DNA from: Thermotoga sp. Ku-13t
GTDB taxonomy: Bacteria > Thermotogota > Thermotogae > Thermotogales > DSM-5069
DNA length: 64,000 nt
NCBI RefSeq assembly: GCF_011057685.1
Contig: NZ_LNFY01000009.1
Location: 243,810 to 307,809 of the forward strand
Direction of reading: 5' to 3'
Shown: positions 31,797 to 58,954 of the stretch, piece by piece
Position numbering within the stretch: position 1 is the stretch's first letter
Layout of the letters: each line of letters starts with the position of its first letter
Position numbers and translations under genes: made by a program
The notes under the pieces: generated by a model
Told to the model about the DNA's origin: nothing
Database searches by the model: none
Seen by the model: only the letters and a program-made list of their open reading frames with translations

Positions 31797-32292
31797 CTAT
31801 GAGAATGGAGACTTCCTCGCCTTTTTTCAACTCACTGCCTGGTGGTGGGTATATGCCCATCACCCTGCCATCCACGCCTTTGAAAGGCATTTGAACCATT
31901 CTAACTTTAAAACCTACACCTCGCAATATGGCCTCGGCCGTTTCTCTCGGTACCCCGACCAGATTCGGTACAATAAATTTGCGCGGCTCTTCACAGAACA
32001 GATTCACCGCTCTGCCTTTTCGCACTTTACTCTCCGCCTGTGGAACGGTGAACTGGACGGTCCCTTCCCCATGGATCTGCCCGACCTTCAAGCCAGCGTT
32101 TTCAAGCATCTTTCTCGCCTGTTCAACACTCGTGCCAGCCACGTTGGGAACGACTGTCTGGGCCGGTCTGATCCAGAAAAAGATCAAAAAAGTCAGCGCG
32201 CCGAGGAAGGAACCGATGAGCAAAAAAACGATGAAATTGAGGACGTTTCTCAGGGCTTTGTTTGAAGCTTTCTGAGCCTGAGCTGACCGCAT
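31771..32292 (-). CDS. Membrane-anchored PASTA-domain protein
   Basis: 173 residues. A short cytoplasmic N-terminus (MRSAQAQKASNKALRN), one membrane segment (about 17-42) and two extracytoplasmic PASTA repeats (TVVPNVAGTSVEQARKML; KFIVPNLVGVPRETAEAIL) with the closing GIYPPPGSELKKGEEVSILI. PASTA domains bind muropeptides or beta-lactams in PrkC-type kinases and penicillin-binding proteins, but here no kinase or transpeptidase domain is attached. It starts inside the 3' end of rlmN (43-base overlap). Confidence 0.82.
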   Translation of the reverse strand: MRSAQAQKASNKALRNVLNFIVFLLIGSFLGALTFLIFFWIRPAQTVVPNVAGTSVEQARKMLENAGLKVGQIHGEGTVQFTVPQAESKVRKGRAVNLFCEEPRKFIVPNLVGVPRETAEAILRGVGFKVRMVQMPFKGVDGRVMGIYPPPGSELKKGEEVSILIDVGEPGRD

Positions 32293-33278
32293 GCCGCTTC
32301 GATGTCCGCTCCTTTCTCCTGCCTGAGTTCTGCTTCGATTCCGTTTTCAAGGAGAATCTCTTTGAACCTCGTCATCTTCCATCGGGATGGTTTTTCGAAA
32401 CCGGCCGTGGTCGGATTGACTGGGATCAAATTGACGTACACTTTCAGATCTTTCAGGAGCTTCGCGAGCCTTCGCGCGTCCTCATCGAAGTCGTTGAACT
32501 CTTTTATGAGTATGTACTCGATCGTGACGCGCCTGTTAGTTTTCTCCTGGTATATCTTGACCGCGTGCAGTATTTCTTCGATGGAATACTTTCTGTTGAT
32601 GGGGACGATTGCGTCCCGTTTTTCGTTGCTCGCCGCGTGGAGCGATATGGCGAGTCGAACGTCGAGCCCCTCTTCGGCGAACTTCACTATCTTGTCCGGG
32701 ATACCCACCGTGCTGACCGTGATCCTGCGAACTCCCACGTCCTTCATCTTCGGATGTATCAGCATCCTGATGCTCTTCACCACGTTATCGTAGTTCAGGA
32801 ACGGTTCTCCCATACCCATGTAAACGATGTTTCTGACGTTTCTTCCAGAATCGTTCTCTACCGCGAGGACCTGTCCCACGATCTCATCCGCGGTCAGATT
32901 CCTCACGAAACCGCTCTGACCCGTGGCGCAGAAGGTGCATTTTATGGGACAACCCACCTGCGTGGAGATGCACGCGGTGGCGTATCCTTCGTGGAACAGA
33001 AGGACCGATTCGATCGTGTTGCCATCTTCGAGCTCGTACAGAAACTTTGTCGTTTTGTCTATTTTCGACACTCTCTTTTCGAGCAGTCTGGGCAACCTTA
33101 TGGTGAACTTCTCTCTGAACAGGGCCCTGTGTTCTTTGGAAAGGTTCGTCATGGCTTCGAAGGTGAAGACGCGTTTTTTGTAGACCCAGTCGAGCAGTTG
33201 ATCGGCACGATACCTTTCAAGGCCCATCTGGGTTACGGCACTGACCACTTCTTCGTAACTCATCTCGAGCAGGTTCAA
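32250..33278 (-). CDS. rlmN: 23S rRNA (adenine2503-C2)-methyltransferase
   Basis: 342 residues. Radical SAM dual-specificity RNA methylase (also methylates some tRNAs). The cluster motif is QVGCPIKCTFCATGQSGFV near residue 105, followed by VYMGMGEPFLNYDNVVKSI, RRITVSTVGIPDKI, LAISLHAASNEKRDAIVPIN, LIPVNPT and the methyl-carrying C-terminal cysteine in IEAACGQL. First gene of the rlmN-PASTA-rsgA-rpe-rdgB-leuS run. It diverges from the MoxR gene across 120 bases. Confidence 0.97.
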   Translation of the reverse strand: MNLLEMSYEEVVSAVTQMGLERYRADQLLDWVYKKRVFTFEAMTNLSKEHRALFREKFTIRLPRLLEKRVSKIDKTTKFLYELEDGNTIESVLLFHEGYATACISTQVGCPIKCTFCATGQSGFVRNLTADEIVGQVLAVENDSGRNVRNIVYMGMGEPFLNYDNVVKSIRMLIHPKMKDVGVRRITVSTVGIPDKIVKFAEEGLDVRLAISLHAASNEKRDAIVPINRKYSIEEILHAVKIYQEKTNRRVTIEYILIKEFNDFDEDARRLAKLLKDLKVYVNLIPVNPTTAGFEKPSRWKMTRFKEILLENGIEAELRQEKGADIEAACGQLRLRKLQTKP

Positions 33279-55092: not shown

Positions 55093-56618
55093 CGCTGGTT
55101 GTCGCTCTGATCTGTGCGCTTGCAGGTCTGTTCTTCGGATATTTGATAGCGAAATCGAACATAGAAAAAGCCTACAGGCGTGCGCAGAAGGATGCCGAGA
55201 GCATCATCAAGAAAGCGGAACAGGAGATAGCTGAGATGAAGAGAAAGGCGATAGTCGAGGCGAGGGAAGAGGCGCACAGACTGAAAGAAGAGATTGAATC
55301 AGACCTGCGGAGAAAGGAACAGGAAATAAGAGCGATAGAAGAAAGACTTTTGAAAAGGGAAGAAATGCTTTCTCGAAGGGAGGAAGCCGTTGAGAAGAAG
55401 GAAGCGTCCCTGGAGTCTTTGAGAGTACAGCTTGAAGCGGCGAAAAAGAAAATTGAGCAGAGGGAGAAGGAACTCGACGAGAAGTTCACACAACTGGCCG
55501 GCATGACCGTGGAAGATGCGCGGAAGATCGTGCTCGAAGAGGCTCGAAACAGATACGAACACGATCTCGCGCTCATGTTCAAGCAGGTCAAAGAGCGATA
55601 CGAAGAGGAAGCCGAAAGGGAGGCGAAGAGGATAATCGTAACCGCTGTGCAGCGTTACGCGCCCGAGTACATAGGTGAGATAACGGTTTCCACCGTCAGC
55701 CTTCCGAACGACGAGATGAAGGGAAGGATCATAGGCCGAGAGGGGAGAAACATCAGAGCTTTTGAAAAGATCACGGGTGTTGATCTGGTGATCGATGATA
55801 CTCCCGAAGTCGTCGTACTTTCAAGTTTCAATCCCATCAGAAGAGAGATCGCACGCATCACGCTCGAAAAACTCGTCGCCGACGGAAGGATACATCCTGC
55901 GAGGATCGAAGAAATGTACGAGAAGGCCAAACAGGAAGTGGAAAAAGCGATCAGAGAAGCCGGCCAGGAAGCCGCTTTGAAGGTTGGTGTGACCGGGATA
56001 CATCCAGAGCTCATCAAGCTCCTGGGTAAACTCAAATACAGAACCAGCTACGGTCAGAACGTGCTTGCGCACTCCGTAGAAGTTGCCCAGCTCGCAGCGC
56101 TCATGGCCGAAGAGCTTGGACTCGATCCAGAGAAAGCCAAACGTGGAGGTTTGCTGCACGACATAGGCAAAGCGCTCGATCACGAAGTTGAAGGTTCGCA
56201 CACTGAGATAGGTGCCGAAATAGTGAAACGCTATGGTGAACCTGAATACGTTGTGAACGCGATCATGAGTCATCACGGAGAAGTTGAACCTTCCTGTCCC
56301 GAGTCGGTCTTAGTGGCTGCAGCGGATGCACTTTCGGCAGCGAGACCAGGCGCCAGACGTGAGGACCTTGAAAACTACATCAGACGCCTGGTGAAGATGG
56401 AAAAGATCGCGATGAGCTTCAAGAACGTTGAGAAAGCTTACGCGATACAGGCAGGTAGGGAAGTGAGAGTCATCGTCGAGCCCGACAAAGTGGACGATGC
56501 CGAGGCTGAAAAGATGGCCTACGAAATTGCGAAGAGGATAGAAGAAGAGGTGGAATATCCAGGAGTCCTCAAGGTGGTCGTCATAAGGGAGAAAAGGTCC
56601 GTGGCCTACGCGAAATGA
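55089..56618 (+). CDS. rny: Ribonuclease Y
   Basis: 509 residues. Endoribonuclease starting mRNA decay, membrane-tethered by the N-terminal helix ([19 protein letters not shown]). A long coiled coil (about 20-190), KH domain with [20 protein letters not shown] near 212, and an HD domain with [39 protein letters not shown] and [11 protein letters not shown]. Last gene of the uvrB run; a terminator follows the stop codon at once. Confidence 0.97.
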
Positions 56619-56642
56619 GGGGACGTTCGTCCCCTCTTTTTT
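56617..56642 (+). terminator. Intrinsic terminator after rny
   Basis: GAGGGGAC (56617-56624), GTTC loop, GTCCCCTC (56629-56636), then TTTTTT. The stem begins at the last bases of the rny stop codon. It closes the uvrB-rny operon 17 bases before the next gene. Confidence 0.9.
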
Positions 56643-56658: not shown

Positions 56659-57249
56659 GTGTATTTTGAAAAAGAAAAGTCCAAGCATCGGCTCTTGCTC
56701 AGAAGACCCGCTCTGCTACTGATAGACTTTCAGAACTATTTTTGCCGGAAGGACGGAAAAGCCTACCTCGCTGGTGTTGAAAGAATGCTTCCGGTCGCGC
56801 AAAGGTTGTTGAAAATCTTTGTAAATAAAGAACTACCCGTGGTCGTGACGATCCACAGAAGAAACAGCCGGTCCATGATGAGATGGTGGAACAACTCTAT
56901 TGAAGATGATCAAGCAGAGCCGTGTTTAGATTGTACGGGTGCTATCCTCCTTTACAAGGACTCTTACGATGCGTTCTACATGACGAATCTGGAAGAGATA
57001 CTCAGAGAGAAGAAAGTGGAACAGATAGTTTTGGGAGGAGTCATGACACATCTGTGTGTTGAAACAACAGCGAGGAGTGCTTTCGTCAGAGGATTCGATG
57101 TGGTTGTCGTTGAAGACGTATGCTGGGACAAGGAAGATTGGTACCACTTTGCCTCTTTGAAAAATCTGGCACACGGTTTTGCTGTTATCACGAATTCGGA
57201 TGAATTGATATGCGCGTTGGAGTCGTTGGAGCCGGTCCGGCAGGTGTAA
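56659..57249 (+). CDS. Isochorismatase-like cysteine hydrolase
   Basis: 196 residues, GTG start. The catalytic triad of the family is in place: D23 in LLLIDFQNYF, K100 in LLYKDSYDAFYMTNLEEIL and C133 in VLGGVMTHLCVETTARSAF (with the usual cis-peptide VMTH). Such enzymes hydrolyse nicotinamide, ureidoacrylate, isochorismate or similar substrates; the residues seen do not decide. It overlaps the next gene by 40 bases, and the three genes to 58954 form one unit. Confidence 0.85.
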   Translation: MYFEKEKSKHRLLLRRPALLLIDFQNYFCRKDGKAYLAGVERMLPVAQRLLKIFVNKELPVVVTIHRRNSRSMMRWWNNSIEDDQAEPCLDCTGAILLYKDSYDAFYMTNLEEILREKKVEQIVLGGVMTHLCVETTARSAFVRGFDVVVVEDVCWDKEDWYHFASLKNLAHGFAVITNSDELICALESLEPVRQV

Positions 57250-58010
57250 CGGCAGCGGTATTTCTGAGTAGATACGGTGTCGAAGTGACAATCTTCGAGA
57301 AAGAAGAAGTGGGAGGACTCATAGTGAACGCGTGGCGGATCGAGAATCTGCCCGTGTTTTCGCCGTGCAGTGGAGAAGACCTCGCGAAGGTGCTGAAAGA
57401 AAGGCTTGAAGAAAGCAGATCCAAGTTGATCTGCGAGGAGGTACTGAGCATACAGGGAAGGTCCGTAAAAACTGTTTCAGCCACCTACGACTTCGATAGC
57501 GTGATCATTGCAACGGGAACGAAACCTAAGAGGATTGAAGAGTTCGAGGTGAATCAAAACGTTGTCTACGAATTCAAAAGGTTGCCGCGCAGGATCAAAT
57601 CGCTTGCCATTTACGGAGCAGGGGATGTCGCCTTCGATGGAGCTTTGAAAGCGAAACACACAGGTGTCAGTGAGGTTCACATCTTCAGCAGATCCGATCG
57701 AATAAAGGCAGTACCAAGGTTGGTCCGGCTGGCATCTCATCTGGGTGTTCGTTATCATCGGGCCGAACCGATACAGGCCGTTGAAGACCTTGGGGGAAGG
57801 GTGAGATTGTTCACGAAGGCTGGAAGTTACGATTTTGATGCCCTGCTCATCTGTATAGGAAGGGTTCCAAACGTTCCTGCCATTGTGAAACCCTCGCGGG
57901 AAGTCCACGTGGTGGGTGATGCAAGTGGAAGCTTCAGGCAGCTTGCGATCGCCATGGGACAGGCGGTTGATGCCTGTATGAAGATCCTTCAAGGAGGGTG
58001 GTGCTCTTGA
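57210..58010 (+). CDS. Thioredoxin-reductase-like FAD/NAD(P)-binding oxidoreductase
   Basis: 266 residues, shorter than TrxR (~310). FAD motif VGVVGAGPAGVTAAVFL (residues 3-19), FEKEEVGGLIVNAWRIENLP (about 30-49, as in TrxR), second dinucleotide site AIYGAGDVAFDGALKAK near 131 and terminal VHVVGDASGSFRQLAIAMGQ. No redox-active C-x2-C is present between the two nucleotide sites, so it is not a classical thioredoxin reductase; it may hand electrons to the neighbouring radical SAM enzyme or reduce a small substrate. Confidence 0.82.
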   Translation: MRVGVVGAGPAGVTAAVFLSRYGVEVTIFEKEEVGGLIVNAWRIENLPVFSPCSGEDLAKVLKERLEESRSKLICEEVLSIQGRSVKTVSATYDFDSVIIATGTKPKRIEEFEVNQNVVYEFKRLPRRIKSLAIYGAGDVAFDGALKAKHTGVSEVHIFSRSDRIKAVPRLVRLASHLGVRYHRAEPIQAVEDLGGRVRLFTKAGSYDFDALLICIGRVPNVPAIVKPSREVHVVGDASGSFRQLAIAMGQAVDACMKILQGGWCS

Positions 58011-58954
58011 GAGTGCTGGCCGAGTACGGTAGAGAAGACATCGCGATCGTTTATCTGGGCGAGACCTCGAAGGGAAGTTTCGTCGAGTTCGTCGAGGCGT
58101 TGCAACCACCGTTCCCCATCAGTGAAAAGTGGGTGTTGATCGTTTCCACATTGAAAGGTTGTCCTGTCAGGTGCAAGATGTGCGATGCGGGTGGATATTA
58201 CGAAGGAGTGCTGGACGAGGACGAAATCATGGAGCAGATACAATACATGGTCGAGCGGAGGTTTCCCGATGGGAAGGTCAGCAGCAAGAAGTTCAAAATA
58301 CAGTTTGCACGCGTCGGGGAACCTGCTCTCAACGAAAACGTGCTCACCGTTCTGGAGAAATTGAGTGACTATCGTAATTTGATACCGTGCATTTCAACAG
58401 TTGCTCCCGCTAGTTGTGAGAACTTTTTCGAACGTTTGCGGCTCATAAAAGATGAACACTACAGAGGACGTTTTCAATTGCAGTTCTCCGTGCATTCGAC
58501 AGACGAAGAGCAGCGAAACCAGCTCATGCCGGTCAGAAAGTGGTCACTGGAACAGATTGCCGAGTACGGTGAGAAGTTTGTGAAGGAGAACGATCGAAAG
58601 ATCACTTTGAACTTCGCCGTGTCGGAAGAGTCCATTCTGGACGCCGGAAAAATTCTGAAGATTTTCTCCAAGGAGAAGTTTCTTGTGAAGGTAACGCCTG
58701 TTAATCCAACGTACAGCGCTCAGCGAAGCGGATTGAAGTCCGATGTTGATGTGACCACCGGTATGCCCATCAAACATCGAAAATTCGTCGAAGAACTTAA
58801 AGACAACGGTTTTGAAGTGATTCTGAGCGTTGGACACCTCGAAGAAAACAAAATCGGTAGCAATTGCGGTATGTACATTCGAAGATACCTGTCGGAACGT
58901 CTCGAAAATCCCTGCGCGTACACCTACTTGAATGCGAAAGTACGGTCTTCTTAA
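58007..58954 (+). CDS. RlmN/Cfr-like radical SAM enzyme of unknown substrate
   Basis: 315 residues from TTG at 58007 (GGAGGG with 7-9 base spacing), overlapping the previous stop. Cluster motif LKGCPVRCKMCDAGG (C52, C56, C59). The order of RlmN motifs is retained: VGEPALNENVLTVLEKL, ISTVAPASCENFFERL, FSVHSTDEEQRNQLMPV, VTPVNPT and, near the end, IGSNCGMYIRR, where C287 aligns with the methyl-carrying cysteine of RlmN. The RlmN of this organism is at 32250, so this is a divergent paralogue. The N-terminal RNA-binding HhH domain of RlmN is absent. The substrate may be RNA or a small molecule. Confidence 0.78.
   Translation: MRVLAEYGREDIAIVYLGETSKGSFVEFVEALQPPFPISEKWVLIVSTLKGCPVRCKMCDAGGYYEGVLDEDEIMEQIQYMVERRFPDGKVSSKKFKIQFARVGEPALNENVLTVLEKLSDYRNLIPCISTVAPASCENFFERLRLIKDEHYRGRFQLQFSVHSTDEEQRNQLMPVRKWSLEQIAEYGEKFVKENDRKITLNFAVSEESILDAGKILKIFSKEKFLVKVTPVNPTYSAQRSGLKSDVDVTTGMPIKHRKFVEELKDNGFEVILSVGHLEENKIGSNCGMYIRRYLSERLENPCAYTYLNAKVRSS

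Follow-up and report, generated by a model that had tools for sequence, protein, structure and literature searches.

Three overlapping genes, encoding an isochorismatase-fold cysteine hydrolase (ISO), a TrxR-fold FAD/NAD(P)H flavoprotein (FLAV) and an RlmN-like radical SAM protein (RSAM), form an association that our analyses firmly show. Because inheritance, loss and decay of the three genes go hand in hand in many phyla of bacteria and archaea, they very probably constitute one undescribed pathway. Judged from its sequence, the radical SAM protein of this module is neither RlmN, nor Cfr, nor a class A radical SAM methylase of the textbook kind.

The genes are located on the plus strand at 56659-58954 of the window, the whole 64,000-nucleotide stretch analysed here, in the order ISO (56659..57249, 196 aa), FLAV (57210..58010, 266 aa) and RSAM (58007..58954, 315 aa). 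The coordinates confirm the arrangement described in the initial annotation, in which the radical SAM gene was joined to an isochorismatase-type hydrolase and a CxxC-less flavoprotein, with overlaps of 40 bases between ISO and FLAV and of 4 bases between FLAV and RSAM. The longest RSAM open reading frame has 318 aa and begins at 57998; orthologues begin at the same residue as the TTG at 58007, so the 315-aa frame is the better start, and C287 in this frame corresponds to C290 in the 318-aa frame. Upstream of the module is rny, and between the two lies a terminator-like hairpin (56617..56636, plus strand; GAGGGGACGTTCGTCCCCTC then TTTTTT), a kind of site expected about three times by chance in the scanned region. 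Downstream, pyrG is located on the opposite strand. The closest named relative was from Pseudothermotoga (74% identity).

Comparative analyses of Thermotogota genomes showed that the three genes co-occur almost perfectly. Among 61 genomes, all three genes were present in 32 and none in 27 (Fisher p ~1e-16 for co-occurrence, in genomes that are not independent). ISO and FLAV occurred in an identical set of 33 genomes, 32 of which carried an intact RSAM. The scores in the 61 genomes split cleanly, both for FLAV (at least 313 bits, versus at most 180 for TrxR) and for ISO (at least 238, versus at most 187). Presence and absence of the module alternate inside the genera g4, g6 and g11, which implies that the whole set was lost or gained independently several times. 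In the 33rd, genome G004, the RSAM gene is in two pieces and ISO and FLAV are intact (L049:4906-7035, L050:7553-9488); since a 1.5 kb repeat, 99% identical between copies and encoding a transposase-like ORF of 440 residues, adjoins each RSAM half, the gene was probably broken by insertion and by recombination between the repeat copies. At the syntenic place in G011, the last of the 61 genomes (L212:3819-5406), a frameshifted remnant of RSAM and a C-terminal remnant of FLAV were found and ISO was gone; here the module decays together. In a further genome, a TnpB/OrfB-like gene lies between FLAV and RSAM and has left both undestroyed (G017, L038:8827-10071). ISO was unlinked yet present in seven Thermotogota genomes. 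In one clade (L203-L210), the unlinked ISO has as neighbours a membrane protein of the DUF1576 family and an unnamed protein of 110 residues. The DUF1576 protein was considered as a fourth component and rejected, as its presence across genomes does not track the module, and it served as the negative control for the profile-based presence/absence test.

The dedicated three-gene operon proposed in the initial annotation is strongly supported, and the linkage reaches far outside Thermotogota. In GTDB genomes, 477 relatives were matched. Among the best 80 of their loci, the gene that immediately precedes RSAM in the same orientation is FLAV in 72, and both ISO and FLAV are upstream in 63; five of the eight loci without an adjoining upstream FLAV begin less than 600 bases from a contig end. 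About 16 named phyla are represented in the best 80 loci, with Thermoplasmatota, Heimdallarchaeota and a Thermococcus-labelled MAG among them; the members outside Thermotogota are nearly all MAGs. Two genomes in which RSAM stands alone retain an ISO-FLAV pair at another place, and FLAV was not found in some genomes, such as G070, all of which are MAGs. In a Thermoplasmatota MAG, FLAV and RSAM are naturally fused in one 622-residue frame with a linker (L142:390-2258, minus strand), the only fusion seen. The pairwise divergences of ISO, FLAV and RSAM are correlated (r 0.67-0.82). Beyond the three genes, no conserved neighbours were found among the loci surveyed, and no paper on this gene combination or on a C118-less class A enzyme was found in a literature search that covered a minority of subscription papers.

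Model and fold comparisons place RSAM close to RlmN and outside its family. RSAM scored 51 bits against the RlmN model TIGR00048 (cut-off 290), versus 392 bits for the true RlmN of the genome, which carries the RlmN_N domain and is encoded in the same window at 32250-33278 on the minus strand. It scored 47 bits against the curated full-length Cfr model (cut-off 530) and 29.2 bits against the Pfam radical SAM model PF04055, marginally below the cut-off of 29.5. The invariant CX3CX2C motif and an AlphaFold model (pLDDT 86) that matches radical SAM barrels assign RSAM to the radical SAM superfamily, and no characterised non-RlmN family claims it. The closest fold was RlmN 5hr6 (Z 25.1, 3.0 A, 269 residues aligned), followed by Cfr (Z 19.2); other radical SAM enzymes trailed well behind, with Z values of up to about 15. 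As the initial annotation had recognised, RSAM has no N-terminal HhH RNA-binding domain: RlmN_N (PF21016) gave no match, and the protein begins at the beta extension. In the tree, a very long branch divides the RSAM clade from RlmN, and archaeal members are interleaved in the clade, with seven changes, at least three of them forced, which points to horizontal transfer. No relative was found among viral contigs, and plasmids gave RlmN/Cfr-level matches only.

All of the ordered RlmN motifs listed in the initial annotation were found in RSAM (CX3CX2C, GEPALNENV, ISTV, SVHSTDEEQR and PVNPT), together with the C-terminal C287. The CX3CX2C [4Fe-4S]/SAM motif (58160..58183, plus strand; C55, C59 and C62 in the 318-aa frame) is conserved without exception in the 105 orthologues. 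So is C287 (codon 58865..58867, plus strand), which in the profile alignment falls on the methyl-carrier cysteine of the RlmN AACGQ loop (C355; C338 in Cfr), and no cysteines other than these four are invariant. The place of the resolving or base cysteine, C118 in RlmN and C105 in Cfr, is taken by Ile48 (318-aa frame; codon 58139..58141, plus strand). None of the 105 orthologues has a cysteine at this position, where I, M, L, V or T is found instead. The initial annotation had overlooked this residue. C131 was considered as a substitute and rejected, being present in only 16 of the 105 orthologues and mostly replaced by Ser in the others; a second resolving cysteine does not exist in RSAM. In the known enzymes, C118 or C105 deprotonates the substrate and releases the protein-RNA crosslink, and the RlmN-like cycle stalls in C118A/C105A mutants (PMC9692996; PMC13001441). 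Class A radical SAM methylases are defined by the two cysteines (PMC9692996), so that RSAM, as far as its sequence tells, is outside this class because the C118 equivalent is absent, although its fold and carrier loop are RlmN-like. RSAM and RlmN are alike in the radical SAM barrel with its beta extension, the motif order and the carrier cysteine in a C-terminal CGQ loop, whereas RSAM differs in having no HhH domain, no C118 equivalent, a near-neutral charge, obligate partners and a separate clade. With Cfr it shares the fold and the type of carrier cysteine, but the C105 equivalent is missing. RlmN is a dual-specificity RNA adenine-C2 methyltransferase and Cfr a 23S rRNA A2503-C8 methyltransferase; methylation of A2503 or tRNA A37 is the reaction expected of these two enzymes. 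Of the outcomes that the initial annotation had named as refuting it, namely placement in a characterised non-RlmN family, loss of C287 in orthologues and unconserved linkage, none was seen.

FLAV (PF07992) was modelled by AlphaFold with a pLDDT of 94, and its best match was TrxR 5mh4 (Z 30.3), with a lower score for the TrxR-type ferredoxin-NADP reductase FNR2 8c16 (Z 24.4). It resembles both kinds of enzyme in its FAD- and NAD(P)H-binding folds but differs from them in having no CxxC, in its length of about 266 aa and in being tied to RSAM. Neither the redox CxxC of TrxR nor any conserved cysteine was found in 99 FLAV members. By sequence, FLAV is matched by the CxxC-less TrxR-like FAD domains of NfnL and dihydropyrimidine dehydrogenase (DPD), which deliver electrons to [4Fe-4S] clusters. 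Because these domains feed such clusters, it is a reasonable inference that FLAV may reduce the cluster or a thiyl radical of RSAM. The initial annotation had suggested the flavoprotein as an electron partner; the partnership, with its putative electron path, gains support from the obligate co-occurrence, the FLAV-RSAM fusion and the CxxC-less FAD domains. We regard FLAV as the redox partner of RSAM with somewhat better than even confidence.

ISO belongs to PF00857 (E 1.4e-37), and D23, K100 and C133, an isochorismatase-like Asp-Lys-Cys triad, are invariant in 26 aligned members. The nearest solved chains are 6azo and 3eef, and the nearest solved relatives are amidases. ISO shares PF00857 and the triad with N-carbamoylsarcosine amidase, biuret hydrolase and RutB, but differs from isochorismatase-fold amidases in its low scores against characterised models (about 47-62 bits, far below their cut-offs) and in a GVMTHLCCETTARSAF motif of its own.

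The reading that we favour, with a confidence a little short of even for the whole, is that of an autonomous, horizontally spread small-metabolite pathway in which RSAM would perform chemistry at C287, FLAV would act as redox partner and ISO would carry out a hydrolysis. A small molecule is the likely substrate of RSAM. The enzyme would reduce SAM at the [4Fe-4S] cluster within its RlmN-type barrel, and C287 would serve as its chemical handle. Most likely, C287 would receive a methyl group from a first SAM; a second SAM would turn the methylated C287 into a CH2 radical in the manner of RlmN, and the radical would add to the substrate. Chances are about equal that C287 is used as a methyl carrier in this way, and a role as hydrogen donor is conceivable within the same reading. 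Since the C118/C105 base is missing, the adduct would have to be resolved by other means, whether through reduction, with the help of a different residue or by the substrate on its own. FLAV, as the obligate partner, would take electrons from NAD(P)H and hand them to RSAM or to a thiyl or adduct intermediate of this enzyme, and ISO would hydrolyse an amide, ureide or similar bond in the substrate or product. The reading is supported by the co-occurrence, conserved order, joint decay, FLAV-RSAM fusion and correlated divergence of the genes, by the ISO-FLAV pairs kept where RSAM is unlinked, by the match of FLAV to CxxC-less FAD domains that neighbour [4Fe-4S] clusters, and by the C287/C118 pattern, RlmN-like fold, missing HhH domain and charge of RSAM. 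It is weakened by the FLAV-less MAGs, by a sampling that is mostly of MAGs outside Thermotogota, and by the NAD(P)H electrons, which are weak for SAM cleavage unless ferredoxin or bifurcation is involved; in addition, an RlmN-like cycle would stall because RSAM has no second resolving cysteine. The dedicated C-methylation proposed in the initial annotation is weakened, as the carrier cysteine is present but the second class A cysteine is absent.

The same cysteine pattern bears on a different chemistry, in which C287 would never be methylated and RSAM would be a non-methylating lyase, reductase or epimerase-like enzyme with a small-molecule substrate; C287 would act as a hydrogen-atom or thiyl donor and be re-reduced by FLAV. 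Cysteines act as such donors in spore photoproduct lyase, an enzyme that was among the next Foldseek matches to RSAM; none of the 105 orthologues has the base that methylation by this route needs, and a redox-active cysteine fits a dedicated reductase partner. However, the IGSNCGQY context of C287 matches the methyl-carrier loop AACGQ of RlmN, and the fold is much nearer to RlmN (Z 25) than to spore photoproduct lyase (Z 12), so we rate this chemistry as rather unlikely, though worth weighing. If RSAM instead methylated RNA at a new site, with an unknown factor as its guide, this would agree with the invariant carrier cysteine and with an RlmN-type barrel that keeps the beta extension. The near-neutral mean net charge of RSAM (-0.6, versus +6.9 for the RlmN core of related genomes) argues against RNA as the substrate, as do the missing HhH domain, obligate partners that are metabolic-type enzymes and the patchy occurrence within phyla; we consider an RNA substrate of this kind very improbable.

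Gene-context analysis brings in a further possibility, that the module belongs to one-carbon/corrinoid metabolism as one of its branches, making or processing a compound methylated at N or C whose methyl group would pass to a corrinoid protein and folate. An MttB-family methyltransferase was found directly upstream of ISO-FLAV-RSAM in about 11 loci of one bacterial phylum, in at least two RSAM lineages, and these loci often add an MtgC-like corrinoid protein, a homocysteine methyltransferase and what we take to be a MetH-activation-like protein. The module of a Chloroflexi genome lies among AcsV, AcsE-like, MTHFR and presumably CooC-type genes, and in a Syntrophaceae MAG the gene after RSAM is putatively of CooC type; the MetH-activation-like and CooC-type labels come from sequences read by eye, and family searches for the latter gave broad ATPase models only. 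Such neighbours, or indeed any conserved neighbour, are missing from nearly all other loci, and the Thermotogota modules share no C1 neighbour. The context is suggestive of a tie to methyl/corrinoid metabolism, though not proof of one, and we hold a pathway branch of this type to be unlikely. MttB, corrinoid and methionine-synthase-like genes directly upstream of the module can be seen at L100:2701-6420, L126 and L168-L175, all in one phylum. Single loci carry ORFs that, read by eye, we take to be adenosine-deaminase-like (upstream of the module, L124:5312-6334), adenine-deaminase-like (after FLAV, L201:8866-10566) and XdhC-like (after RSAM, L108:8599-9648); a purine-catabolism theme was set aside on these three single-locus ORFs and is kept as a lead to a possible purine link.

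The near-perfect co-inheritance of the module across bacteria and archaea, around a central enzyme without a named family, points to a widespread anaerobic reaction that is as yet undescribed. It is doubtful, though conceivable, that this reaction extends methyl-cysteine radical chemistry further, with a CH2-S-Cys radical adding to a small molecule, release without the class A base cysteine, an electron from a dedicated flavoprotein and a pathway that crosses domains. As a C118-less version that retains the carrier cysteine, RSAM offers a natural test of the RlmN/Cfr mechanism, and it is a caution that RlmN/Cfr-like annotation based on similarity can mask a different function.
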